The notes under the pieces were generated by a model. That model was not told the origin of the DNA. It was given only the letters and a program-made list of their open reading frames with translations, and did no database searches. The translations under genes and the position numbers were made by a program. DNA of 51,172 bases, taken from assembly GCA_018902915.1 (NCBI GenBank), contig JAHIPS010000082.1:1-51172 (forward strand), given 5' to 3'. Within the stretch, counting starts at the first letter, position 1; every line of letters starts with the position of its first letter. This DNA comes from Candidatus Omnitrophota bacterium (GTDB taxonomy: Bacteria > Omnitrophota > Gorgyraeia > Gorgyraeales > Gorgyraeaceae). Shown piece by piece: positions 38,421 to 50,596 of the stretch.

Positions 38421-39925
38421 GTATACAAAAGATAATATTATTTATGATTTTAATTTTTTCCAGCACCAGCCTTGTATCTGGCTACGAGGCCAAGTCACTA
38501 AAAGGCGGGGAAGACTTGTCCAGTCATACGATCCTCGAGGTGCCAGAGATAAGAAGTAAACTTCAGACACCCATAACAGTGGATTTCAGGGATGTGAGCC
38601 TTGATTATGTCCTGGATTTTTTATCAGACGCAGCAGGCGTGAATATAATTACAGGCGCAGGGGTTGAGTCAGGGGACAAAAAGGTCACTATCAGGGTAAA
38701 GGACATGGCGTTAGGGGGCCTTTTAAAATATATTTTCAGGAACCAAGGACTTATTTACAGGATCGAGGAAAGCGCGGTGTGGGTGGATACATTTGACGCA
38801 ATGGAAGGAGAGGATTTAGAGACGCGGATCTATTACCTGGACCAGGGACTCGCCATGTTTACTGAATTCAGCGGAAAGACTGCCAGTTCTGGCGGGGGAT
38901 TTGGCGGCGCAGCAGGCATATCAGAAGTAAATACTATCAAGGACGTGCTTGATGACGCTATCGTCTGGCCAAGTGACGCCAAGATCAACCTGGACGAGCG
39001 CACAGGCGCGCTAATTGTCACAAACACGCCTTCAAATTTAAAGGTAATCGAAGAGATCCTATATAATCTTGACATAGACGCGACGCAGGTCCTTATAGAG
39101 ACGAGGTTTGTGGAAATAAATGTCACAGATACAAGCGAGCTGGGAATAAATCTTTCCTTGAGCAGCCCTTTTGCTATTTATAAAGACGCTGGCGAGTCAG
39201 TGAATGAGATAGCCTCTGGCAGCGGTTCAGCTTTTTCATCTTTTACGAACGCGAGCGAAGGGCTGAACCTTGCTTACCAGGGCATGCTTACAAAGCCCCA
39301 GTTTTCAGCAGTCTTGCACGCGCTTGAGAAGAATACAAAACTAAAGACTCTTTCTGCGCCAAAGATCACCACATTGAATAACCAGACAGCCACAATAGAG
39401 ATAGTGAATGAATTTGTATATCCGACAAGATATGAGCCGACATTGATAAAAAAGGATTTAAACGAAGATGGAGATTTTCTTGATGAAGAATTAGTAGATG
39501 GAGTCCTTACAAAAGAAACAAGGTTTGTAAATGCGCCGCAGGGTTTTGAAACGCGGGATATAGGGATAATTCTCCAGGTAACGCCAAATATAGGCGCGGA
39601 TAAACGGGCAATAACATTGACGCTAAGGCCAGAGGTAAGCGAGGCATCTCCGAACGCGTTTGAATATAGCGGCGAGGTAAAACTGCCGAAGTTTACAACA
39701 AGGAGCCTTACCACGAATATAGTCGTAAAGAACGGGGAGACCATAATGCTGGGAGGACTCATAAAAGAGACAAGGATCAATACCAGGACAAAGACACCTT
39801 TTTTAGGCGACCTGCCTTTATTGGGCCCACTCTTCAGAAAGGACTCGGACAGCGTGGAGAGAAAGAATCTTTTGATATTTGTCACTGCCAGTATCCTGAG
39901 TCGGAAAGGCGAGATATTACAATGA
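38417..39925 (+). CDS. Secretin paralogue, short form
   Basis: 502 residues. Signal peptide followed directly by the STN-like domain (about 55-140) and pore domain (about 215-495), with long stretches matching the preceding secretin (LDYVLDFLSDA, NNQTATIE, FVYPTRYEP, ETIMLGGLI, PFLGDLPLLGPLFR). It lacks the coiled-coil N-terminus. Tandem duplication followed by specialisation is the simplest reading; mixed rings are possible. Confidence 0.92.
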   Translation: MSIQKIILFMILIFSSTSLVSGYEAKSLKGGEDLSSHTILEVPEIRSKLQTPITVDFRDVSLDYVLDFLSDAAGVNIITGAGVESGDKKVTIRVKDMALGGLLKYIFRNQGLIYRIEESAVWVDTFDAMEGEDLETRIYYLDQGLAMFTEFSGKTASSGGGFGGAAGISEVNTIKDVLDDAIVWPSDAKINLDERTGALIVTNTPSNLKVIEEILYNLDIDATQVLIETRFVEINVTDTSELGINLSLSSPFAIYKDAGESVNEIASGSGSAFSSFTNASEGLNLAYQGMLTKPQFSAVLHALEKNTKLKTLSAPKITTLNNQTATIEIVNEFVYPTRYEPTLIKKDLNEDGDFLDEELVDGVLTKETRFVNAPQGFETRDIGIILQVTPNIGADKRAITLTLRPEVSEASPNAFEYSGEVKLPKFTTRSLTTNIVVKNGETIMLGGLIKETRINTRTKTPFLGDLPLLGPLFRKDSDSVERKNLLIFVTASILSRKGEILQ

Positions 39926-40923
39926 GTAAGATCATCAACATTAAAGACGTGGCCAGGGAAGCGGGTGTTTCAATCGCGACTGTCTCAAGGGTCGTGAATA
40001 AATTATCGACGGTAAAACGCTCTAATAAGATCAGGGTCGAGAGGGCGGTTAAGAAACTCAAGTTTACGCCCAATGTGAGCGCGCAGAGGCTCGCGGCAAA
40101 AAGCAACAATGCGATCGGCCTTGTCATCCCCAGATATTCTGATATATTTCATTCATTCTACGCGCTGCAGATCCTGCAGGGTATTGGCCTTGCAGTAGAA
40201 AGGATGAAGCTGGATTTATTACTTCATATAACAGACGGCGATAGTTTTTTGAATACATCAGCAGTGGAAGGCGTGATATTCTCTGATATTATAGGCAATG
40301 AAGAGCAGGTGGACAATGTGCTCGAGAAGGACATGCCGTGCGTTATCATGAATTATCTTACAAAGGATCTGCCGGTCTCGTGCGTGGCAATAGATAATTT
40401 TAACGCAGCCGCGAAGGCAGTGCAGTATCTCATCAAGCTCGGCCACTCAAAGATCGCCACGATTACAGGCGAGTTAAAATCCCAGGTAGCCATAGATAGA
40501 TTAGATGGGTACCTAAAGACGCTTGAAAAAAACAAGATAGACAAAAAAAAGAATTATATAAAATACGGTGATTTTGGAAGGGATCTAGCTATAAAGGCCA
40601 CAAAGGAACTCATAGACTCAAAGACACCCCCAACAGCCATATTCGCCGCGAGCGATGAAATGGCTGTAGGCGCGATACAGGTCTTGATCGAGAATGGCAT
40701 AAACGTGCCCCATGATGTTTCAGTAATAGGTTTTGACGACAACCAGCTTGCGTTGGGTTTTTCTCCAGTGCCGCTCACTACTATGAGGCAGCCATTGCAT
40801 AAAATGGCTGTTACAGCCACAGAAACGCTTTACAATATCATCACCAAAAAGACAAAGGGCCATAAAAGGATAATTCTTCCGGCAGAACTCATTGAGCGGT
40901 CTTCCTGTCAATCGTTAACCTGA
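39922..40923 (+). CDS. LacI-family transcriptional regulator
   Basis: 333 residues. N-terminal helix-turn-helix (IKDVAREAGVSIATVSRVVN, about 6-25) with hinge and a periplasmic-binding-type effector domain (AIGLVIPRYSDIFHSFYALQ; AIFAASDEMAVGAIQVL; VSVIGFDDNQLALGFSPVPLTTMRQP). It is coupled by a 4-nt overlap to the secretin, so it is made with the pilus platform. The effector, usually a sugar or nucleobase, cannot be read from sequence. The biotin operon begins 47 nt downstream. Confidence 0.9.
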   Translation: MSKIINIKDVAREAGVSIATVSRVVNKLSTVKRSNKIRVERAVKKLKFTPNVSAQRLAAKSNNAIGLVIPRYSDIFHSFYALQILQGIGLAVERMKLDLLLHITDGDSFLNTSAVEGVIFSDIIGNEEQVDNVLEKDMPCVIMNYLTKDLPVSCVAIDNFNAAAKAVQYLIKLGHSKIATITGELKSQVAIDRLDGYLKTLEKNKIDKKKNYIKYGDFGRDLAIKATKELIDSKTPPTAIFAASDEMAVGAIQVLIENGINVPHDVSVIGFDDNQLALGFSPVPLTTMRQPLHKMAVTATETLYNIITKKTKGHKRIILPAELIERSSCQSLT

Positions 40924-40970: not shown

Positions 40971-41933
40971 ATGATAAGAGATATCCTTGATAATGTATTA
41001 AATGGTAAGGAGTTAGGCCTTGAAGAGGCAAAGACGCTTTTAGATGCAAAAAGGGATGAGGTCTATTTTCTTATGCACGCGGCCAATGCAGTGAGAGAGA
41101 GGTTCTGCGGCAATAAGATCGACCTTTGTTCTTTGATAAATGCGAAGAGCGGACTTTGCTCAGAGGATTGCAAATTCTGCGCCCAATCCTCAAGGTACAA
41201 GACAGGCTGCGAGGTCTACCCGCTGGTCAGTGTTGAGGAAATGGTAAAGGCGGCAAAAAAGGCAAAAAGAATAGGCGCTGCTAATTTTTGCATTGTCATT
41301 AGCGGGGGAGGGCCCACGGAAAGCGAATTCAAGAAGATAAAGAAGGCGATAGCAAGGATCAATAAAGAAGTAGGCATAAGCGTGGATTGTTCGCTGGGAA
41401 ATCTTGCGATAGGCATGGTTAAACAGTTAAAGGAATTGGGCATAGCGCGATATAATCATAATCTAGAGACGTCAAAGAATTTCTACAAAAATATTTGCAC
41501 GACACATTCTTATGAAAACAGGCTGAACATGGTGCGCATGCTGAAGGACGTGGGCCTGAATCCTTGTTGCGGCGGGATAATCGGACTGGGCGAGTCAATA
41601 GAGGATAGGGCGGACCTCGCGTTCAGCTTAAAGGAGCTGGATGTTAAATGCGTGCCAGTGAATATACTTAATGCGAGAAAAGGTACGCCTCTTGGAAACA
41701 TTGAGCCGCTTCCGCCCATGGAGATAATAAAGACGATCGCGGTTTTCAGGCTGGTTTTGCCGCGCTCGGTTATAAAGATCGCGGGCGGCAGGGAGAGTGC
41801 GCTGCGTGACATGCAGGCAATGGCATTTCTGGCAGGCGCGAATGGTATGATAATAGGCGGATATCTTACTACAAAAGGAAGATCTGCGGCTGAGGACCTG
41901 CGGATGATACGCGACCTCGGCTTCACCACATAA
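40971..41933 (+). CDS. bioB: Biotin synthase
   Basis: 320 residues. Radical-SAM enzyme that inserts sulfur into dethiobiotin. The cluster motif CSEDCKFC gives Cys63, Cys67 and Cys70, and further family marks are NAKSGLCSEDCKFCAQS, YNHNLETSKNFY, GGIIGLGES and the end ANGMIIGGYLTTKGRS. No ribosome-binding site precedes the ATG; the promoter position suggests a leaderless mRNA. First gene of the cluster. Confidence 0.96.
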   Translation: MIRDILDNVLNGKELGLEEAKTLLDAKRDEVYFLMHAANAVRERFCGNKIDLCSLINAKSGLCSEDCKFCAQSSRYKTGCEVYPLVSVEEMVKAAKKAKRIGAANFCIVISGGGPTESEFKKIKKAIARINKEVGISVDCSLGNLAIGMVKQLKELGIARYNHNLETSKNFYKNICTTHSYENRLNMVRMLKDVGLNPCCGGIIGLGESIEDRADLAFSLKELDVKCVPVNILNARKGTPLGNIEPLPPMEIIKTIAVFRLVLPRSVIKIAGGRESALRDMQAMAFLAGANGMIIGGYLTTKGRSAAEDLRMIRDLGFTT

Positions 41934-41950
41934 CTTAAAGAGGAGGACTT

Positions 41951-42898
41951 ATGAAAAAGATGCGGATAGCAGTATTGGGCGCAGGGGGTTTAGGAAAGGC
42001 ATGTCTTGAAGTCGTGGCAAAGAAAAAAGAGGCGGAGGTCGTTGCTATTTGCGATTCGCATGGCTATTTGTATTCTGGAAAAGGGATAGGGGTGGAAGAT
42101 CTGATGCGACTCAAGCCTTCCAGGGATCCCATAGGCGAAATTATAAAGTTAAAGAATAGATTTGACGGGATCTTTGTGGCGCTTCCGAATTTGCCGAATG
42201 AATTTATTCCAGGCGTGGCAAAGCGGTTCATGAAGGCAGGGTACAGCGGGGTCTATACGTGCGCGTTAAAACGAACAGCCGCAATTAAATTGATGATGAA
42301 ACTAGATAGCGGGCTCAAAAAAAATAATAGCATCTATATAGCCGGCTGCGGCGCAACGCCTGGACTTTTGTCAGCTGCGGCAGTGCTGGCAGCGCAATCA
42401 TTTACAGAGATCGAGAATGTTAATATATGGTGGGGCGTGGGTATTTCAAACTGGGATGCATACAAGGCCACTATAAGGGAAGATATCGCGCATTTACCAG
42501 GATATACTGTTTTAAAGGCAAAAAGGATGACAGACACGCAGGTCGATAAGCTTTTGGACAGGACAGAGGGCAGGCTTGAGCTGCATAATATGGAGCATGC
42601 CGACGATATTTTGCTTAAAAATGTCGGGGTGGTTGATTCGCTGGACAAGGTTTCAGTGGGAGGCGTTATGGATACAAGGCACGCGAAAAAACCTGTCTCT
42701 ACCACAATGACGCTTACCGGCACTACATTTGAAGGCAAACGTTCCAGTCATAGGTTCATACTAGGAGATGAGACCTCTATGGCAGCCAATGTCATAGGAC
42801 CTGCCCTCGGATACATGAAGCGGGCGCTCTGGCTGAAGCAGCGCAAGATATACGGCATGTTCGGTTCCACTGAATTCATGCCGATGATAGTGAAATAA
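41951..42898 (+). CDS. Rossmann oxidoreductase in the biotin cluster, BioU candidate
   Basis: 315 residues with a strong ribosome-binding site (AGAGGAGGA). The N-terminus binds NAD(P)H (RIAVLGAGGLGKACLEVV, 5-22). The body recalls saccharopine/homoserine dehydrogenase-like proteins: FVALPN, CALKRTAAIK, AGCGATPGLLSAAAVLA. It sits between bioB and bioF while no bioA-like aminotransferase is visible. In cyanobacteria BioA is replaced by BioU, a dehydrogenase-like suicide enzyme that donates the amino group of its own active-site lysine. Lys107 (CALKRT) is one candidate for such a residue. The BioU reading is an inference from context and fold; a different oxidoreductase role cannot be excluded. 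Confidence 0.6.
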   Translation: MKKMRIAVLGAGGLGKACLEVVAKKKEAEVVAICDSHGYLYSGKGIGVEDLMRLKPSRDPIGEIIKLKNRFDGIFVALPNLPNEFIPGVAKRFMKAGYSGVYTCALKRTAAIKLMMKLDSGLKKNNSIYIAGCGATPGLLSAAAVLAAQSFTEIENVNIWWGVGISNWDAYKATIREDIAHLPGYTVLKAKRMTDTQVDKLLDRTEGRLELHNMEHADDILLKNVGVVDSLDKVSVGGVMDTRHAKKPVSTTMTLTGTTFEGKRSSHRFILGDETSMAANVIGPALGYMKRALWLKQRKIYGMFGSTEFMPMIVK

Positions 42899-42902
42899 GA
42901 CT

Positions 42903-44081
42903 ATGGATTTCGACTCAATGTTACAGAAGGAACTGGGCGAGCTGAAAAGCAAAGGGCTTTTCAGGGAGATGAAAGAGATCAGCGGAATGCAGGGTCCTTT
43001 AGTAGTGATTGATAATAGAGAAGTAATCCTTCTTTCCTCTAATAATTATTTAGGGCTGGCCTCTCATCCTGAAGTGATCAAGGCGCAGATAGAAGCTGCA
43101 AAAGAATTTGGCGCAGGCGCGTCTGCCTCCCGTCTTATTTCAGGTAATATGATTTTGCATGAAAGATTAGAGAAAAAAATAGCTGATTTTAAGGGTACCG
43201 AGGCCGCGATTATTTTTACCACAGGATACATGGCGAATATCGGGACCATAAGCGCGCTTATGGGAGAAAAGGATCTTGTGATCTGTGATAAATTAAACCA
43301 TGCCAGTATTATAGATGGTGTACGTCTGAGCGGCGCGGCATTGAGGACATATCCTCACAAGAATGTCGAAAGGTTAGAGGATATTTTAAAAAAAGAGATT
43401 TCGTATAAAAAGAAACTCATTGTCACCGACGGTGTTTTCAGTATGGATGGCGACGTAGCGCCTTTGTCTGAGCTCGTAAGGATTGCGGAAACCTACGATG
43501 CTATTTTGATGCTGGACGACGCGCACGCAACAGGCGTTATTGGAAAAAACGGAAAGGGCACGTGTGAGCATTTTGGAATAAAAGAGGGTGTTCATGTGCA
43601 GATGGGGACATTCAGCAAGGCACTGGGAAATCTGGGAGGATTCGTAGCCGGCTCAAAGGTCTTGATCGATTACATTCGCAACAAGGCCAGGTCTTTTATA
43701 TATTCAACTGCCCTGCCGCCTGCAATAGTCGGTGGCTGTATAAAGGCTATCGAGATAATAGAAAAAGATAATAGCTTAAGGGAGAAACTCTGGTCTAATG
43801 TCGCAAGATTCCGCGACGCGCTATTAAAATTAGATTTTAATATTATGGAGACAGAGTCGCAGATAATCCCGATACGCACGCGAGATGCCTCTTTGACCAT
43901 GAAGTCAGCTGAATTTTTACTGAAAAATGGAATATTTGCGCCGGGCATAAGACCGCCAACAGTGCCAAAGGCAAAATGCAGGATCCGCGCATCACTGATG
44001 GCCACGCATACCGATGAGCATATTGATAAAGCAGTAGAGGTATTTAAGAGGTTAAAAAGTGAACCCCATTCCAAATTTTAA
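42903..44081 (+). CDS. bioF: 8-amino-7-oxononanoate synthase
   Basis: 392 residues of the PLP-dependent alpha-oxoamine synthase family: SNNYLGLASHPEV, GAGASASRLISGN, MLDDAHATGV and the PLP lysine Lys239 in FSKALGNLGGF. It condenses pimeloyl-thioester with alanine. The related 2-amino-3-ketobutyrate ligase is an alternative by sequence alone, but the biotin neighbours decide. The last few residues (HSKF) and the stop are encoded by the left end of a terminal-inverted-repeat element starting at 44064. Confidence 0.93.
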   Translation: MDFDSMLQKELGELKSKGLFREMKEISGMQGPLVVIDNREVILLSSNNYLGLASHPEVIKAQIEAAKEFGAGASASRLISGNMILHERLEKKIADFKGTEAAIIFTTGYMANIGTISALMGEKDLVICDKLNHASIIDGVRLSGAALRTYPHKNVERLEDILKKEISYKKKLIVTDGVFSMDGDVAPLSELVRIAETYDAILMLDDAHATGVIGKNGKGTCEHFGIKEGVHVQMGTFSKALGNLGGFVAGSKVLIDYIRNKARSFIYSTALPPAIVGGCIKAIEIIEKDNSLREKLWSNVARFRDALLKLDFNIMETESQIIPIRTRDASLTMKSAEFLLKNGIFAPGIRPPTVPKAKCRIRASLMATHTDEHIDKAVEVFKRLKSEPHSKF

Positions 44082-44166
44082 AGGATTCTTATATATTTGG
44101 AAGGATTGATAATGAAAAAGAATCGTAGTAATATTATGCGTTACTATCCAAAAATTTGGAACGGGG
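44064..44166. repeat. MITE-like element, copy 3, joining bioF and bioD
   Basis: CCCCATTCCAAATTTT (44064-44079) is inverted at 44151-44166 with one mismatch. Length (103 bp) and ends match copies 1 and 2, but the interior is unrelated. It holds the bioF stop, the bioD ribosome-binding site GGAAGGA (44099-44105), the bioD ATG (44112) and its first 18 codons. Confidence 0.75.
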
Positions 44167-44783
44167 CAAGGGGATTTTTTGTAACAGGAACTGACACAGG
44201 CGTTGGAAAGACTGAAGTCGCAGCCTATCTGGCAGAGAGTTTTTCCAAAAAAGGTTTCAAGGTAGGCACGATGAAACCTATTGCGACAGGTAGCTCTAAG
44301 GATGCGAGGATCCTAAAGGCAGACCCGGTGATTTCGTTTAGGTTACCCTTGGCGCCGTTGGTAGCAGGTAAGGTAAATAAAGGGAGGATATGGCAGGCCT
44401 TTGAGAAACTAAAGGCCAATAGCGATATCGTTATTGTGGAGGGCATTGGCGGCGTGATGGTGCCAATATCTGGAAAAGGCAAAAAGGCGTTTTATGTTTC
44501 AAATATGATTTCAAAGATGAACCTCCCAGCTATTATAGTAGCAAGGCCAAATTCAGGCACTATAAACCATACTTTAATGACTATAGAAGTGCTCCGAAGA
44601 AAAAAGATTAAAATAGCTGGTATTATATTTAATCACTCCTCCCGCGTAAAAAACGATATTTCAATAAAGACAAATCCCGGGATAATCCAGGGGCTTTCCG
44701 GGGTTAAGACCCTGGGTGTCATGCATTATAACAAAAACAGGAGCAAAAGGAGGATGAAATGGTTAAAGAGAATCGAATTTTAA
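44112..44783 (+). CDS. bioD: Dethiobiotin synthetase
   Basis: 223 residues from the ATG at 44112, 6 nt after GGAAGGA; an in-frame TTG at 44097 would add five residues and lacks a ribosome-binding site. The P-loop GTDTGVGKTE, IVEGIGGVMVPI and the late NHSSR region identify BioD. The family normally starts 3-5 residues before GFFVTGTDTG; here about 18 extra residues (MKKNRSNIMRYYPKIWNG) are encoded by the inserted repeat. It overlaps the next gene by 25 nt. Confidence 0.92.
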   Translation: MKKNRSNIMRYYPKIWNGARGFFVTGTDTGVGKTEVAAYLAESFSKKGFKVGTMKPIATGSSKDARILKADPVISFRLPLAPLVAGKVNKGRIWQAFEKLKANSDIVIVEGIGGVMVPISGKGKKAFYVSNMISKMNLPAIIVARPNSGTINHTLMTIEVLRRKKIKIAGIIFNHSSRVKNDISIKTNPGIIQGLSGVKTLGVMHYNKNRSKRRMKWLKRIEF

Positions 44784-45007
44784 TATTTATAATCGGATTT
44801 TTGTGCGCATGGACATTTTTTTCTAATTTCACAGGAGAAACCAAGGCCCAGTCTGCGCTGCCATCCAACATTACTTTTTCAGGCGAGAGCAATGTGATCT
44901 ATTTCCTGGACAGGGATAATGGAATTGTCTACAGGTATAATACTCAGGGCAGATTTACCCGCTCCTATATTATAGAGGAACTCGGTAAAGATTTGAAATC
45001 CAAGTAG
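44759..45007 (+). CDS. Small exported protein of unknown function
   Basis: 82 residues with an excellent ribosome-binding site (AAAGGAGG, 5 nt spacing) inside the end of bioD. A signal peptide or anchor (ILIFIIGFLCAWTFFSNF) is followed by a short beta-rich part (NVIYFLDRDNGIVYRYNTQGRFTRSYI split around 50-70) resembling a single beta-propeller-like strand pair. I do not recognise a family. Co-translated with bioD. Confidence 0.7.
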   Translation: MVKENRILIFIIGFLCAWTFFSNFTGETKAQSALPSNITFSGESNVIYFLDRDNGIVYRYNTQGRFTRSYIIEELGKDLKSK

Positions 45008-45029: not shown

Positions 45030-46061
45030 ATGAAGATCAGGGAAAAATTTCTCACAACTGGAATAGGTAGCCTGCCGTATCTTGACGCAGGAAAGAGCGT
45101 TAAACAGGTCTGCGCCAATTTTGACATACCTTTCTGGCCACAGCTGCCAAAAAGAGGTTTTAAGGAAAATATGTTTGTCCAGTTTGCCCAGGGGCTGCCA
45201 TCGCTTGTTATCGACGAGAAAAATCGAAAGATATACGTTGATAGCGCCAAGGATTTGAGCGGAGAATTAGGGAAGCTATACGAGATATATCTTTCAGGAG
45301 ATTATAGTAGTCTCGCGCCTACAAGGGATTTTGCAGAGGGTTTTTATGCCTTTCTGGATATTACAAAGGGGTCAAGGCCCGGTTATGTGAAAGGCCATGT
45401 CACAGGCCCTGTTAGTTTTGGCTTGAGTGTCGTTGACGAAAAGGGTAAATCCATAATATACAACGATACCCTTAAAGAAGCGCTTGTCAAGCTCCTGGAG
45501 ATGAAGGCCGCGTACCAGATAGATAGATTAAAGGATATCTCCAAAAATGTCATAATCTTTATAGATGAACCATCTCTTACTGGTTTTGGCTCCAGTTTTG
45601 TGAGCATTGAAAGACAGGACGTGATATTGATGTTGAATTCTATAATAGACAAGATCCATTCAAGGGGCGCTTTGAGCGGTATTCACTGTTGCGGAAATAC
45701 AGATTGGTCGCTTCTTACTGAAACAGAAGTCGATATTATAAACTTTGATGCATACTCATATGCTGAAAATCTTTCATTGTATGTCAAGGATATAGCAGAG
45801 TTTTTAAAAAAAGGAAAAAGATTAGCATGGGGTATTGTGCCTACTTCTCAGGCAGTGACGAAAGAAACTGAGAACACACTTTTTGATAAATTAACAGAAG
45901 AAATAGGAGTTTTAGATAAAAAAGGAGTTCCGCGGGATCTACTGATCTCGCATTCATTGCTCACGCCAAGTTGCGGCATGGGTACTCTCTCCAATGAATT
46001 GACGGAAGATATCTTAACCAAGCTTACCAAAGTCGCACAATTAGCAAAAGACGCCTTATAA
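45030..46061 (+). CDS. Core MetE-like cobalamin-independent methionine synthase
   Basis: 343 residues, matching only the catalytic barrel of MetE. The zinc ligands are readable: His219-x-Cys221 in GIHCCGNTDW and Cys315 in LTPSCGMGTL; FIDEPSLTGFG and TTGIGSLPY are also MetE/UROD-like marks. The N-terminal folate-binding half of classical MetE is absent, as in the short archaeal and Dehalococcoides-type enzymes, which may take methyl groups from methylcobalamin or corrinoid proteins. A methyltransferase with another thiol acceptor is possible. The UPF0280 and NIL-ferredoxin genes downstream favour a homocysteine/methionine role. Confidence 0.75.
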   Translation: MKIREKFLTTGIGSLPYLDAGKSVKQVCANFDIPFWPQLPKRGFKENMFVQFAQGLPSLVIDEKNRKIYVDSAKDLSGELGKLYEIYLSGDYSSLAPTRDFAEGFYAFLDITKGSRPGYVKGHVTGPVSFGLSVVDEKGKSIIYNDTLKEALVKLLEMKAAYQIDRLKDISKNVIIFIDEPSLTGFGSSFVSIERQDVILMLNSIIDKIHSRGALSGIHCCGNTDWSLLTETEVDIINFDAYSYAENLSLYVKDIAEFLKKGKRLAWGIVPTSQAVTKETENTLFDKLTEEIGVLDKKGVPRDLLISHSLLTPSCGMGTLSNELTEDILTKLTKVAQLAKDAL

Positions 46062-46071
46062 ACTGACCAGT

Positions 46072-47157
46072 ATGAATGATATTCTTGCCTTAGGGGCGCA
46101 GTCTAAAAGCAGCTTTTGTTTTGTTAAATCCGGAGGCTTTCATATTTCGGATTACAGCGGAGACCTGGGCGACATACATAATCTCAGGAATTTTGAGAGA
46201 GATATAAAAAAGATGCAAAAGAAACTCAAAGTCACGCCGGGTATTATCGCCTGCGATTTGCACCCTGAATATATTTCAAGTAAGTTAGCAGCAGAGTGGC
46301 TCAAGGTCCGAGGCTCGAGGCTCAAGGCAATCCAGCACCATAAAGCGCATGTGGCAAGTTGTATATTTGACAATGACGTCGAAGGTAAAGTAATAGGTAT
46401 AGCATTTGACGGCACAGGGTATGGCCTGGACGGGAATATCTGGGGAGGCGAGTTTTTTGTAGGCACTCTTAAAGGGCTGAGGAGAGTCGCGTATTTAAAA
46501 TATATTCCTATGCCTGGGGGAGAGACAGCTGTTCGCGAGCCATGGCGCATGGCGCTGAGCTATCTCTATAATATATATGGAAAGAGTTTTAATTTTGCCA
46601 GGATGGATAAGCAGAAGGCCAGACTTCTTACCCAGATGATAGATAAGGGCATAAATTCGCCTTTGACATCAAGCATGGGCAGGCTTTTTGACGCGGTTTC
46701 AGCGCTTACAGGGATTTGTCATGTAGCAAAATACGAAGGACAGGCAGCAATTGAGTTAGAAAGAGCTATCAGCTATCAGCCATCAGCTTTCAGCTTAAAT
46801 AATGGATATAATTTTAGCTATTTTAACGATAAAGGCTTAGTTATAGTAGATTGGGCGCCGGTTATTAAAGGCATAGTTAAGGATTTACAAGCCAAAAAGA
46901 CCAGGACAGAGATTTCAGTAAAGTTTCACAACGCGGTTTGTTATATGATAAGAGACGTGTGCAGGTTATTGAGAAAAAAATATAAAATAGACAAGGTCTG
47001 TATGAGCGGAGGCGTGTTTCAAAATAAGTTTCTTGCGACTCACGCAAAACCTCTTTTGGAAAAAGAAGATTTTAAAGTATATTTACACAAAAACCTGCCA
47101 GCCCACGACGGTAATATTGCATTGGGTCAGGCAATTTTAGCATCTGTCCAAGGCTAA
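46072..47157 (+). CDS. hypF: HypF C-terminal (carbamoyltransferase) half only
   Basis: 361 residues against about 750 for normal HypF. It begins exactly where the Kae1-like domain starts (ALGAQSKSSFCFVK) and contains GDLGDIHNL, DLHPEYISSKLA, the metal-site region HHKAH (about 89-93), FDGTGYGLDGNIWGGEF and SGGVFQNKFL. The acylphosphatase, zinc-finger and YrdC-like domains, which make carbamoyl-AMP, are missing. HypF loads carbamoyl onto HypE for the CN ligands of [NiFe] hydrogenase. Residues about 232-242 (SYQPSAFSL) come from a tandem heptamer repeat. The stop codon is in the loop of a palindrome. Confidence 0.85.
   Translation: MNDILALGAQSKSSFCFVKSGGFHISDYSGDLGDIHNLRNFERDIKKMQKKLKVTPGIIACDLHPEYISSKLAAEWLKVRGSRLKAIQHHKAHVASCIFDNDVEGKVIGIAFDGTGYGLDGNIWGGEFFVGTLKGLRRVAYLKYIPMPGGETAVREPWRMALSYLYNIYGKSFNFARMDKQKARLLTQMIDKGINSPLTSSMGRLFDAVSALTGICHVAKYEGQAAIELERAISYQPSAFSLNNGYNFSYFNDKGLVIVDWAPVIKGIVKDLQAKKTRTEISVKFHNAVCYMIRDVCRLLRKKYKIDKVCMSGGVFQNKFLATHAKPLLEKEDFKVYLHKNLPAHDGNIALGQAILASVQG
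46764..46796. repeat. Tandem heptamer AGCTATC repeat in hypF
   Basis: Four and a half 7-bp units (AGCTATC, AGCTATC, AGCCATC, AGCTTTC, AGCTT) lie in frame and encode SYQPSAFSL, which is not part of the conserved HypF domain. Confidence 0.8.
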
Positions 47158-47196
47158 GCCTTGGACAAAGCTTTGTCCAAGGCTTAGCCTTGGACA
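47145..47196. repeat. Double palindrome (23-6-23), copy at hypF-hypC
   Basis: Two 23-bp palindromes (47145-47167 and 47174-47196; arms TGTCCAAGGC/GCCTTGGACA) are reverse complements of each other across a 6-bp spacer, the same design as 10095-10146. The TAA loop of the first (47155-47157) is the hypF stop codon. The hypC ribosome-binding site AGGAG starts at the last base. Confidence 0.9.
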
Positions 47197-47210
47197 GGAG
47201 AAGCAGTGAT

Positions 47211-47417
47211 ATGTGCTTAGCAATACCTATGAAGATCGTAAAGATAGAAGGCGACAGGGCAGTGGTGTCTGCCGGCAGGGTCGAGCGCAGGGTAGCTATT
47301 AATTTTTTGAAGAACCCTATGGTGGGGGATTACGTGATGATACACGCTGGCTTTGCCATTGAAAAGCTCGATACTAAAAAAGCAGAAGAAACACTTCGCA
47401 TGCTGGAAGAGATCTGA
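47211..47417 (+). CDS. hypC: [NiFe]-hydrogenase maturation chaperone HypC
   Basis: 68 residues. The ATG at 47211 is required because HypC must begin Met-Cys (MCLAIPMKIV); the in-frame ATG at 47190 lies in the palindrome. Cys2 binds the Fe(CN)2CO unit with HypD. GDYVMIHAGFAIEKLD is the second family motif. It overlaps hypD by 1 nt. Confidence 0.95.
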   Translation: MCLAIPMKIVKIEGDRAVVSAGRVERRVAINFLKNPMVGDYVMIHAGFAIEKLDTKKAEETLRMLEEI

Positions 47418-48532
47418 TGAAATATATCGACGAATTCAGAGACAATAAAATAGCGAAAAATATCTCAAGGGCAATTTTTGAAAAGGCCGGGACATCAGGA
47501 CCTGTAAATATAATGGAGGTGTGCGGCACGCATACAATGTCTATCTGTAATTTTGGTATTCGCGACATGCTGCCTGAGAATATAAATCTTATCTCAGGGC
47601 CTGGATGCCCTGTCTGCGTTACGCCAAAAGCATACATTGACAGGGCAGTGGCGCTTGCCGGGATCCAGGATACTGTCGTGACGACATTTGGGGATATGAT
47701 GAAGGTGCCTGGTTCGCGTTCCAGCCTGACGCAGGAAAGGACAAAGGGCGCATCGGTAAAGGTTGTTTATTCTACGCTGGATGCAGTGGATATTGCTGAA
47801 AAAAACCCGGATAAAAAAGTGATCTTTCTCGGCATAGGCTTTGAGACCACATCGCCCACTGTGGCTGCTAGCCTGGCATACGCAAAAAAGAAAAGGCTAA
47901 AAAACTTTTTTGTATACTCTGGGCACAAGGTAATACTTCCGGCTATGAAGGCGTTGATGGAAGACCGCGACGCAAAGATAGACGCGTTTTTATGTCCCGC
48001 GCATGTAAGCACTATTATAGGTATGACGCCTTATAACATTATTGCCACAAAATACAAGACGCCGTGCGTGATAACAGGATTTGAGCCACTGGATATCCTG
48101 CAGGGCATTTTAATGATCATAGAGCAGATCACATCTAAAAGATCAGAGGTTGAAAATCAGTATAAAAGGATCGCTACAAGGTCCGGAAATAAAAAGGCCC
48201 TTGATCTGCTGGATGATGTTTTTGAGATAGAGGATTCTGAATGGCGCAGCATCGGTATTATCCCTAAAAGCGGCATGAGATTGAAAAGAAAGTATTCAGT
48301 ATTCGATGTTGAGAAAAATTTTGATCTACCTGCGATAAAAACCAGGCCTGATACAGGATGCATGTGCGGGAGCGTGTTGAAAGGCATAAAGACGCCGTTT
48401 GATTGCCCACTCTTTAACAAAAAATGCACGCCTGAACATCCTGTGGGGCCATGCATGGTCTCCAGCGAGGGTACATGCGCTGCGTATTATAGGTACCCCG
48501 TACCACAAGGGTACGGGGCAGGCAGAAGATGA
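47417..48532 (+). CDS. hypD: [NiFe]-hydrogenase maturation protein HypD
   Basis: 371 residues. Scaffold on which Fe(CN)2CO is assembled. Cys36 in MEVCGTHTMS, SGPGCPVCVTP, GFETTSP, and the C-terminal cysteine cluster (TGCMCG...DCPLF..KCTP..PVGPCMVSSEGTCAAYY) that holds the 4Fe-4S cluster. The last dozen residues after YYRY are encoded by a small palindrome. It overlaps hypE by 4 nt. Confidence 0.96.
   Translation: MKYIDEFRDNKIAKNISRAIFEKAGTSGPVNIMEVCGTHTMSICNFGIRDMLPENINLISGPGCPVCVTPKAYIDRAVALAGIQDTVVTTFGDMMKVPGSRSSLTQERTKGASVKVVYSTLDAVDIAEKNPDKKVIFLGIGFETTSPTVAASLAYAKKKRLKNFFVYSGHKVILPAMKALMEDRDAKIDAFLCPAHVSTIIGMTPYNIIATKYKTPCVITGFEPLDILQGILMIIEQITSKRSEVENQYKRIATRSGNKKALDLLDDVFEIEDSEWRSIGIIPKSGMRLKRKYSVFDVEKNFDLPAIKTRPDTGCMCGSVLKGIKTPFDCPLFNKKCTPEHPVGPCMVSSEGTCAAYYRYPVPQGYGAGRR
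48496..48518. repeat. Short palindrome at the 3' end of hypD
   Basis: CCCCGTACC (48496-48504) and its exact reverse complement (48510-48518) around a 5-nt loop, inside the last codons of hypD. Confidence 0.8.
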
Positions 48533-49518
48533 GAAAAATCACATTAGCCCATGGAAGCGGCGGAAGCCTGATGCATGAATTGATAAAGGATCTGTTCGTG
48601 AAGAACCTGGACAACCCTTATTTAAACAATCTTGGGGATTCAGCTTTGATCAATAAAAACCTGGCATACACTACAGATTCGTTCGTGATCAACCCTATAT
48701 TTTTTCCAGGCGGAGACATAGGAAAGCTGTCTATCTGCGGCACAGTGAATGATCTGTGCGTTTCCGGAGCCAAGCCAAAATATTTGTCATGCGGCATGAT
48801 AGTTGAAGAGGGATTTGATTATAAAGATCTGGAGAAAATAACATTATCAATAAAGAAGACCTGTAAAAAGGCGGGCGTATATGTAGTTGCGGGGGATTTC
48901 AAGGTTGTTGAAAAAGGCGCGGTGGATAAGATTTTTATAAATACATCAGGTATTGGAGAGATGTATCAGAATGCCATGCTTTCGGCCAGCCGCATAAGAC
49001 CAGGCGACAAGATCATCGTAAGCGGCACAATAGGCGACCACGGCGCGTCAGTACTTTTGGCAAGGGAAGAACTGAAATTTAAATCAAGGATCTTTAGCGA
49101 CTGCGAGTGTCTTAATGGCCTGATATCATCGATAATATGCAAGGATATAAGGTTTATGAGGGACCCTACCAGGGGCGGGCTCGCGACTACATTGAACGAG
49201 ATCAACGCGCAGTGCAGTTATGATATGACTATTGACGAAAGAACTATCCCTGTAAAAGAAAAGGTAAGGGCATTGTGCGAGATACTTGGTATGGACCCTT
49301 TATATATGGCAAACGAGGGCAAGGCGCTCTTTATAGTCTCTCCGAAATCAGCGTCAAGGATCTTGTCGCGTATGAAAAGCCATCCTCTCGGCAAAAACAG
49401 CAGGATCATCGGAGAGGTTGAAAAACGCAAAGCCAAAAAAGTTTATTTAAAGACAAAAATAGGCGGCACGCGTATCCTGGACATGCTAAGAGGCGAGCAG
49501 TTGCCCAGGATCTGCTAA
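48529..49518 (+). CDS. hypE: Carbamoyl-dehydratase HypE
   Basis: 329 residues of the PurM-like family: LAHGSGGSLMHELI, TTDSFVINPIFFPGGDIGKL, SGTIGDHG, MRDPTRGGLATTLNE. The chain ends PRIC, so the C-terminal cysteine that carries the carbamoyl/cyano group is present. It would accept carbamoyl from the HypF-like protein and dehydrate it with ATP. Confidence 0.96.
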   Translation: MRKITLAHGSGGSLMHELIKDLFVKNLDNPYLNNLGDSALINKNLAYTTDSFVINPIFFPGGDIGKLSICGTVNDLCVSGAKPKYLSCGMIVEEGFDYKDLEKITLSIKKTCKKAGVYVVAGDFKVVEKGAVDKIFINTSGIGEMYQNAMLSASRIRPGDKIIVSGTIGDHGASVLLAREELKFKSRIFSDCECLNGLISSIICKDIRFMRDPTRGGLATTLNEINAQCSYDMTIDERTIPVKEKVRALCEILGMDPLYMANEGKALFIVSPKSASRILSRMKSHPLGKNSRIIGEVEKRKAKKVYLKTKIGGTRILDMLRGEQLPRIC

Positions 49519-49527
49519 AGGTGATTT

Positions 49528-49875
49528 ATGCATGAGATCGGACTGGTAGACGATATAATCAGCGTGATCAGGGCCAGGCTGAAGGCGTCAGGCGAGGATT
49601 CAAAGGTCAAAAAGGTCAATATCCTTATAGGTGAATTAGAGCATGTTACGCCAGATCATTTTGAGTTTCATTTCAGGGAAAGGGCAAAGGGCACGAGTCT
49701 TGAAAATGCAGAGTTAAGTTTTAAAAAAGTCGTTGCAAAGTTTAAATGCAAAGGCTGCAAAAAAGAGTTTTCAGGACGGGAAGGGCTGAATGGATGCCCT
49801 GGCTGTGGAAGCAAGATAAATGATATTATAGCTGGCTCAGGGATTAGCGTAGAGTCAGTGGAGATATATGACTAA
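49528..49875 (+). CDS. hypA: Nickel-delivery protein HypA
   Basis: 115 residues. Begins MHE with the nickel-binding His2; zinc site Cys74/Cys77 (CKGC) and Cys90/Cys93 (CPGC). Delivers nickel to the hydrogenase large subunit, normally with HypB, which is not in this window. It overlaps the next gene by 8 nt. Confidence 0.95.
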   Translation: MHEIGLVDDIISVIRARLKASGEDSKVKKVNILIGELEHVTPDHFEFHFRERAKGTSLENAELSFKKVVAKFKCKGCKKEFSGREGLNGCPGCGSKINDIIAGSGISVESVEIYD

Positions 49876-50596
49876 AAAAGATTACAAGGAAAGATTTTAC
49901 AGGGGCTGGGTCAAAGGCAAGGATCTTCTCACGCAGGAGATTGTTGTTGCCGAGACAGATCTTTATATTTCCGCGGAAAAGGATATAAAAGAGATCGCGG
50001 AAAGAATTGTAAAAAAATACAGGAGCGAAATAGAAGGCTATATAAAAAAGCTGCCTGAATTCAGGACCAGTCTCCAACCATTGGATCCAGATTCTGGCGC
50101 GCCTGATATTGTTAAAGACATGATTCGCGCTTCAAAGGCAGCGGGTGTTGGACCAATGGCAAGCGTGGCTGGCGCAATGGCAGAATTTGTTGGAAAAGAA
50201 CTTTTATCAAATTCAAACCAGGTTATAGTCGAAAATGGCGGGGATATATTTATAGCTTCAGACATAGAGCGAACTGTCGCAATATTTGCAGGTGATTCAC
50301 CATTGAGCAAAAAACTTTCTATAAAGGTAAGACCAGGGGATATGCCGCTGGGGATCTGCACGTCTTCTGGCACGATCGGTCATTCTTTGAGCTTTGGAAA
50401 AGCAGATGCGTGTGTTATAATATCTAAGTCTACATCACTGGCAGACGCAGTAGCGACTGCCGCGTGTAATAAGGTAAAGACAAGGGAAGATATAAAACCA
50501 GCACTTGGGTTTGCCACATCTATTAAAGGTATACAGGGCGCATTGATAGTTTTAGGCAAGGATTTCGGCGCCTCAGGCAACATAGAGCTGGCTTAA
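49868..50596 (+). CDS. UPF0280 (COG2122, ApbE-like) protein
   Basis: 242 residues of the UPF0280 family: YRGWVKGKDLLTQEIVVAETDL, MIRASKAAGVGPMASVAGAMAE, VENGGDIFI, GICTSSGTIGHSLSFGKADA, ADAVATAA. The fold is related to the flavin transferase ApbE. In Methanosarcina the COG2122 protein was linked to homocysteine biosynthesis together with a DUF39 protein and a NIL-ferredoxin. The NIL-ferredoxin gene is directly downstream here. No DUF39 gene is seen before the window ends. Confidence 0.88.
   Translation: MTKKDYKERFYRGWVKGKDLLTQEIVVAETDLYISAEKDIKEIAERIVKKYRSEIEGYIKKLPEFRTSLQPLDPDSGAPDIVKDMIRASKAAGVGPMASVAGAMAEFVGKELLSNSNQVIVENGGDIFIASDIERTVAIFAGDSPLSKKLSIKVRPGDMPLGICTSSGTIGHSLSFGKADACVIISKSTSLADAVATAACNKVKTREDIKPALGFATSIKGIQGALIVLGKDFGASGNIELA

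Follow-up and report, generated by a model that had tools for sequence, protein, structure and literature searches.

Which enzyme performs the 7,8-diaminononanoate step of biotin synthesis when a cluster of bio genes holds no BioA-type aminotransferase? The question is raised by a contig of an uncultured Omnitrophota bacterium (JAHIPS010000082.1; the whole 51,172-nucleotide stretch analyzed is referred to as the window), in which bioB, bioF, and bioD are accompanied by a gene for a 315-residue Rossmann-fold protein. We put the probability that this gene is bioU, supplying the step done elsewhere by bioA, at about 95%, on the basis of its orthology and fold, the two catalytic residues, the operon context, the lack of bioA, and the phylum-wide mutual exclusion of bioU and bioA, all of which were observed here.

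Gene content of the biotin cluster

The four genes are tightly packed on the plus strand between positions 40971 and 44783, in the order bioB-bioU-bioF-bioD (Table 1), with gaps of 17 bp between bioB and bioU, 4 bp between bioU and bioF, and about 30 bp between bioF and bioD; the sequence GGAGGA precedes the bioU start within the first of these gaps. A sequence-only reading of the window had described this run as bioB, a 315-residue Rossmann protein, bioF, and bioD without BioA, and all four ORFs were confirmed, with the bioB, bioF, and bioD products scoring above the curated cut-offs of their families and no BioA-type aminotransferase encoded within the cluster. The closest PDB chain to the bioB product is the biotin synthase 8vdw (E = 5e-93). 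For bioD, an alternative TTG start at position 44097 is possible.

Table 1. Features of the biotin cluster and its borders (positions in the window)
Feature	Position	Strand	Evidence or remark
LacI-family regulator, left edge of the bioBUFD block	39922..40923	+	directly upstream of bioB
bioB, biotin synthase, radical SAM, 320 aa	40971..41933	+	TIGR00433, 408 bits (cut-off 225)
bioU, (S)-8-amino-7-oxononanoate synthase BioU, 315 aa	41951..42898	+	NF047886, 389 bits, E = 1.6e-116
K107 codon (suicide lysine by alignment with K124 of Slr0355)	42269..42271	+	alignment
bioF	42903..44081	+	TIGR00858, 480 bits (cut-off 426)
bioD, dethiobiotin synthase, ATG start	44112..44783	+	TIGR00347, 130 bits (cut-off 83)
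Small ORF with N-terminal hydrophobic stretch, right edge of the bioBUFD block	44759..45007	+	orthologues in genus g2

The genome to which the window belongs (1.80 Mb in 128 contigs, 86% complete) contains bioB, bioF, and bioD without bioA: a search of this 86% complete genome returned no bioA match at E <= 1e-100, and its only class III aminotransferases (PF00202) are ArgD, whose gene is flanked by argB and argF, and two HemL proteins, each encoded next to hemB. A bioA or bioK gene elsewhere in the genome, which the sequence-only reading had named as evidence that would count against it, was looked for, and no bioA was found; BioK was covered through the PF00202 class III search. Because the genome is 86% complete, the absence of bioA alone is no proof, but it is backed by the phylum-wide pattern described below. 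The genome also encodes one match to BPL_LplA_LipB, a family with biotin protein ligases among its members, and yielded no match to the BioY transporter, a combination consistent with an organism that makes its own biotin.

Identity and active-site residues of the 315-residue protein

BioU of Synechocystis PCC 6803 (Slr0355) is reportedly the subject of Sakaki et al. 2020 (doi 10.1038/s41589-019-0461-9), and its structures are available as PDB entries 6ir4, 6k36, 6itd, 6k37, and 6k38. When the window protein was compared with PDB sequences using phmmer, the Slr0355 chains 6ir4, 6k36, 6itd, and 6k38 were matched at E of about 1e-97, with 51% identity over 311 aligned residues, and the next match (E = 5e-4) was confined to the Rossmann nucleotide-binding motif. 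The predicted NAD(P)-binding Rossmann motif GxGxxG reads GAGGLG at residues 10-15, with G10, G12, G13, and G15 conserved in at least 98% of sequences, and, relative to Slr0355, the linker that follows residue 66 is shortened by about 12 residues. The AlphaFold (AF2) model (pLDDT 93.3) has five BioU crystal structures as its top five PDB matches (TM-score 0.96-0.97, rmsd 1.4-1.5 A), and the next fold, that of the D-amino acid and diaminopimelate dehydrogenases, reaches a TM-score of only 0.58. The latter are NAD(P)-linked Rossmann enzymes, with about 15% identity to the window protein and without full-length homology to it.

Among protein families, the best match is NF047886, over the full length of the protein. 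The 389-bit score falls below the curated NCBIfam cut-off of 600, which is reached in none of the Omnitrophota genomes and in 0 of 14 control genomes, so that this threshold looks like a narrow naming cut-off, tuned to proteins closely related to the type enzyme, and not a defining trait of the enzyme. The protein matches neither PF00202 nor TIGR00508 and so does not classify as a PLP class III aminotransferase. Families of amino-acid and diaminopimelate dehydrogenases gave no full-length match either; their matches are confined to the N-terminal Rossmann region, and PF00208 (residues 2-66) is the sole dehydrogenase family passing its cut-off.

Lys107 of the window protein aligns with the suicide lysine Lys124 of Slr0355, and His216 aligns with His233; the PDB entries titled K124A (6itd) and H233A (6k38) carry alanine at exactly these two positions. 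Across an alignment of 99 BioU sequences, comprising the window protein, those of other Omnitrophota, and those from the GTDB scan described below, K107, R108, E177, D178, H181, E215, H216, D218, and D219 are invariant (99/99), and the equivalents of the lysine and histidine are also present in four haloarchaeal homologues that are 44-45% identical to the window protein. As a literal string, LKRT seemed to be missing from many cyanobacteria and archaea; the alignment gave IKRT or LKRS there, with the lysine intact, and the string was dropped as a motif. Overall, structure prediction and alignment with Slr0355, both proposed as checks by the sequence-only reading, upheld its guess of Lys107 and revealed homology over the full length, whereas no clear assignment to a different dehydrogenase family, which would have spoken against it, came up. 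Its description of the gene as "a BioU analogue or a new BioA substitute" needs correction: the protein, a full-length orthologue of Slr0355, is BioU itself.

Distribution of bioU and bioA

BioA (adenosylmethionine-8-amino-7-oxononanoate transaminase, TIGR00508) acts at the same pathway step as BioU, with the unrelated fold of PLP class III aminotransferases. Among 384 Omnitrophota genomes, bioA was found in 186, including members of the sister genus g2, and bioU in 18, with no genome containing both. When only bioB-positive genomes are considered, bioA is present in 0 of the 16 that have bioU and in 178 of the 202 that do not (Fisher p = 9e-14, a value that treats related genomes as independent). 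Seven further genomes with weak NF047886 matches (E from 1e-7 to 1e-3) were left out of the count, the matches having been rejected as fragments or generic Rossmann matches; the match in genome G288 probably comes from a genuine bioU truncated at a contig end.

Within the family to which the window belongs, genera g1 and g3-g6 carry bioU, as do two more (represented by loci L153 and L154), and the gene is missing from the nine g2 genomes of the phylum sample, five of which contain bioA. Three g2 loci have the classical operon bioB-bioF-(alpha/beta hydrolase)-bioC-bioD-bioA. At the site corresponding to the window cluster, g2 genomes have two secretin genes and the LacI gene, as upstream of bioB in the window, followed directly by an orthologue of the small ORF (45-52% identity, E from 1e-22 to 1e-26 in five g2 genomes). 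Thus, bioBUFD forms a clean block between the LacI gene and the small ORF that is absent from this site in g2. A second BioU-bearing Omnitrophota group (f30) displays the order secretin-secretin-LacI-bioU-bioF-bioD, with bioB located elsewhere, and a single clade uniting the BioU proteins of the two Omnitrophota groups scores above the free tree (p-AU 0.69). Probably, bioU was at this site in a common ancestor and was subsequently lost in g2, the alternative being parallel gain. With bioA in one genus and bioU in its sisters at a clean insertion/deletion site, the family offers a good natural system for asking why cells use a one-shot enzyme. The LacI-family protein itself is probably not biotin-specific: a role as biotin regulator is unlikely because in g2 the gene and the secretins are retained at a site that has no bio genes.

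When GTDB species genomes, those of Omnitrophota included, were scanned with a profile, 476 BioU relatives were confirmed, which occur in at least 10 phyla and in archaea. Among the 80 of these 476 matches that are listed, the record titles name Omnitrophota, cyanobacteria, Desantisbacteria, Schekmanbacteria, Armatimonadetes, Abditibacteriaceae, Nitrospinae, Planctomycetales, Poribacteria, Sumerlaeota, Coatesbacteria, and Candidatus Methanoperedens; these taxa are those given by the submitters, and contigs of metagenome-assembled genomes may be mis-binned. The archaeal BioU proteins (haloarchaea and Methanoperedens; loci L156-L159, L069, L094, and L100) are 44-56% identical to the window protein, share its conserved lysine and histidine, and are encoded in the same gene order: bioB-bioU-bioF-bioD on haloarchaeal plasmids, where BioU is annotated as a "transcriptional regulator" or "hypothetical protein," and bioB-bioW-bioU-bioF-bioD in Methanoperedens, which, unlike the window, has bioW in the operon. 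That the gene order is identical in bacteria and archaea provides good support for a shared role in the pathway. The literature searched describes BioU as cyanobacterial, yet the pathway is evidently far wider than cyanobacteria. No description of it in Omnitrophota was found in the literature searched. Omnitrophota nevertheless stand out less than the sequence-only reading had implied, since BioU spans at least 10 phyla as well as Methanoperedens and haloarchaea. Given that BioU is the only identifiable diaminononanoate route in the Omnitrophota genomes with bioU, and given the haloarchaeal gene order, genomes scored as bioA-negative may still make biotin. The haloarchaeal annotation as a regulator is exposed as erroneous by these comparisons, and the NF047886 cut-off misses such members.

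Proposed mechanism, alternatives, and the pimeloyl source

Primary metabolism has few enzymes that are spent in making a single vitamin molecule. The Synechocystis and window proteins share full-length homology, fold, the suicide lysine, the His233 equivalent, and the replacement of bioA; the host of the latter is an uncultured member of Omnitrophota, with bioU in a compact bioB-U-F-D operon. According to PMC12915131, Slr0355 conjugates 8-amino-7-oxononanoate to Lys124 in an NAD(P)H-dependent reaction, the conjugate is carboxylated, and NAD(P)+ drives the release of diaminononanoate carbamate, leaving the lysine irreversibly modified. By homology to this cyanobacterial enzyme, the epsilon-amino group of Lys107 in the window protein would form an imine with the ketone of 8-amino-7-oxononanoate, the substrate of BioU being the product of bioF, and NAD(P)H would reduce this imine to a covalent BioU conjugate. 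Carboxylation of the conjugate would yield a carbamate, and oxidation of the lysine-side bond by NAD(P)+ would free 7,8-diaminononanoate carbamate for BioD, which would close the ring before BioB inserts sulphur. Lys107 would end up as an aldehyde, limiting each BioU molecule to one turnover. Judging from orthology and the conserved residues, we consider such single turnover in the window protein highly probable.

The single-turnover reading has a competitor in which the protein belongs to the BioU family but works repeatedly in this lineage, either with a free amine donor or by regeneration of the spent residue. Single turnover is costly and, in the literature found, is shown only for the cyanobacterial enzyme, and regeneration of the spent residue is compatible with the sequence data; an enzyme with a free donor, however, would be expected to let the lysine drift, which it does in none of the 99 aligned sequences nor in haloarchaea, and no extra partner gene, bio genes aside, is conserved with bioU across phyla. 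We therefore regard repeated turnover as improbable. Even harder to sustain is the idea that an amino-acid or diaminopimelate dehydrogenase of the ordinary kind lies in the bio operon by chance, with BioA supplied by an unassembled gene. The Rossmann fold, the weak similarity to glutamate and diaminopimelate dehydrogenases, and the 86% completeness of the genome would all accommodate it, but it is contradicted by full-length BioU orthology, by a TM-score of 0.96 to BioU, where the nearest amino-acid dehydrogenase reaches 0.58, by the retention of the catalytic residues, and by the presence of bioA in 0 of 18 genomes with bioU, and we give it almost no credence.

If BioU is accepted, the literature searched, which describes the enzyme from cyanobacteria, might suggest that the cluster was recently acquired from them. 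The window BioU is, however, closer to homologues outside its own phylum (identity of up to 65-68%) than to cyanobacterial ones (about 51-52%), and in the tree the cyanobacterial proteins form one clade with support of 100, apart from the group of the window. Forcing the window family together with cyanobacteria costs 39.7 log-likelihood units, although this arrangement is not formally rejected (p-AU 0.088), whereas the single Omnitrophota clade, also not rejected, outscores the free tree, and both Omnitrophota groups carry bioU beside secretins and LacI. Recent transfer from cyanobacteria is thus unsupported by the tree and identity data and appears very unlikely.

The source of the pimeloyl moiety in organisms with BioU is a more novel question than BioU itself. 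No BioC above the cut-off was found in the genome (best match 44 bits, to generic methyltransferases), and BioW was not found in it. Across the phylum, bioC is present in 138 of the 384 genomes and in 0 of the 18 with bioU (p = 5e-4, uncorrected); many Omnitrophota genomes with bioA likewise lack bioC. The absence of bioC is shared with Synechocystis, which also lacks bioH and whose pimeloyl source is described as undetermined. The chances seem to us about even that BioU is a widespread, anciently distributed substitute for BioA among archaea and uncultured bacteria, not a cyanobacterial specialty, and that Omnitrophota without BioC (and, for this genome, without BioW), like cyanobacteria, use an undiscovered pimeloyl route. 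Among recurrent neighbours of bioU, no candidates for the pimeloyl step emerged beyond bioB, bioF, bioD, and, in Methanoperedens, bioW. In one Desantisbacteria locus, a gene that by eye looks like bioY lies near bioU.

Archaeal operons and an extended BioU

In anaerobic methane-oxidising archaea, BioU takes the place of BioA in a compact biotin operon (Table). The BioU proteins of haloarchaeal plasmids carry the annotation "transcriptional regulator" or "hypothetical protein", a mis-annotation that is likely systematic. In another genome, G280, the additional residues of BioU precede the active-site half and include a repeated VPQAR-type stretch; it looks as if a repeat had been inserted in frame where the two halves of the protein join.

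Features discussed in the text
Feature	Locus	Positions	Remarks
BioB	window	40971-41933 (+)	Cys within ICTTHSY
MetE-like protein, HypF-like carbamoyltransferase, HypD, HypE, HypA, then ApbE-like protein	window	45030-50596	by eye
BioU reading frame	L018 (G280; L064 is the same)	1498-2799	~85 additional residues
BioU, haloarchaeal plasmids	L156-L159	5001-6071	order bioB-bioU-bioF-bioD
bioB-bioW-bioU-bioF-bioD operon	L069, L094, L100		Methanoperedens and an uncultured archaeon
Alpha/beta hydrolase	L111	7374-8075	genus g2
Alpha/beta hydrolase	L112	6233-6919	genus g2
Alpha/beta hydrolase	L113	6944-7630	genus g2

Biotin synthase type and pimeloyl genes

PDB comparison showed that the ICTTHSY cysteine of the window BioB is common to the biotin synthases 8vdw and 8vcw; at this position E. 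coli BioB has Ile. The window protein is possibly a biotin synthase of type II, carrying a 4Fe-5S auxiliary cluster. Neither bioC nor bioW was found in the window's own genome (86% complete), despite the presence of bioF, bioD, bioB, and bioU, and bioC was found in none of the 18 Omnitrophota genomes with bioU. In the BioA-type operon of the sister genus g2, the alpha/beta hydrolase gene lies between bioF and bioC, in that order. The L111 copy has no match in NCBIfam and could therefore be an esterase of BioH type that has no name yet.

Neighboring and duplicated genes

By eye, the run downstream of the biotin genes appears to be a hydrogenase maturation block, and another genome, G025, keeps it. 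The hemB-hemL pair is present twice in the window's genome, on contigs C61 and C82 (L028 and L029); with contamination estimated at 3.6%, the second pair may represent a duplication or a contaminating contig.
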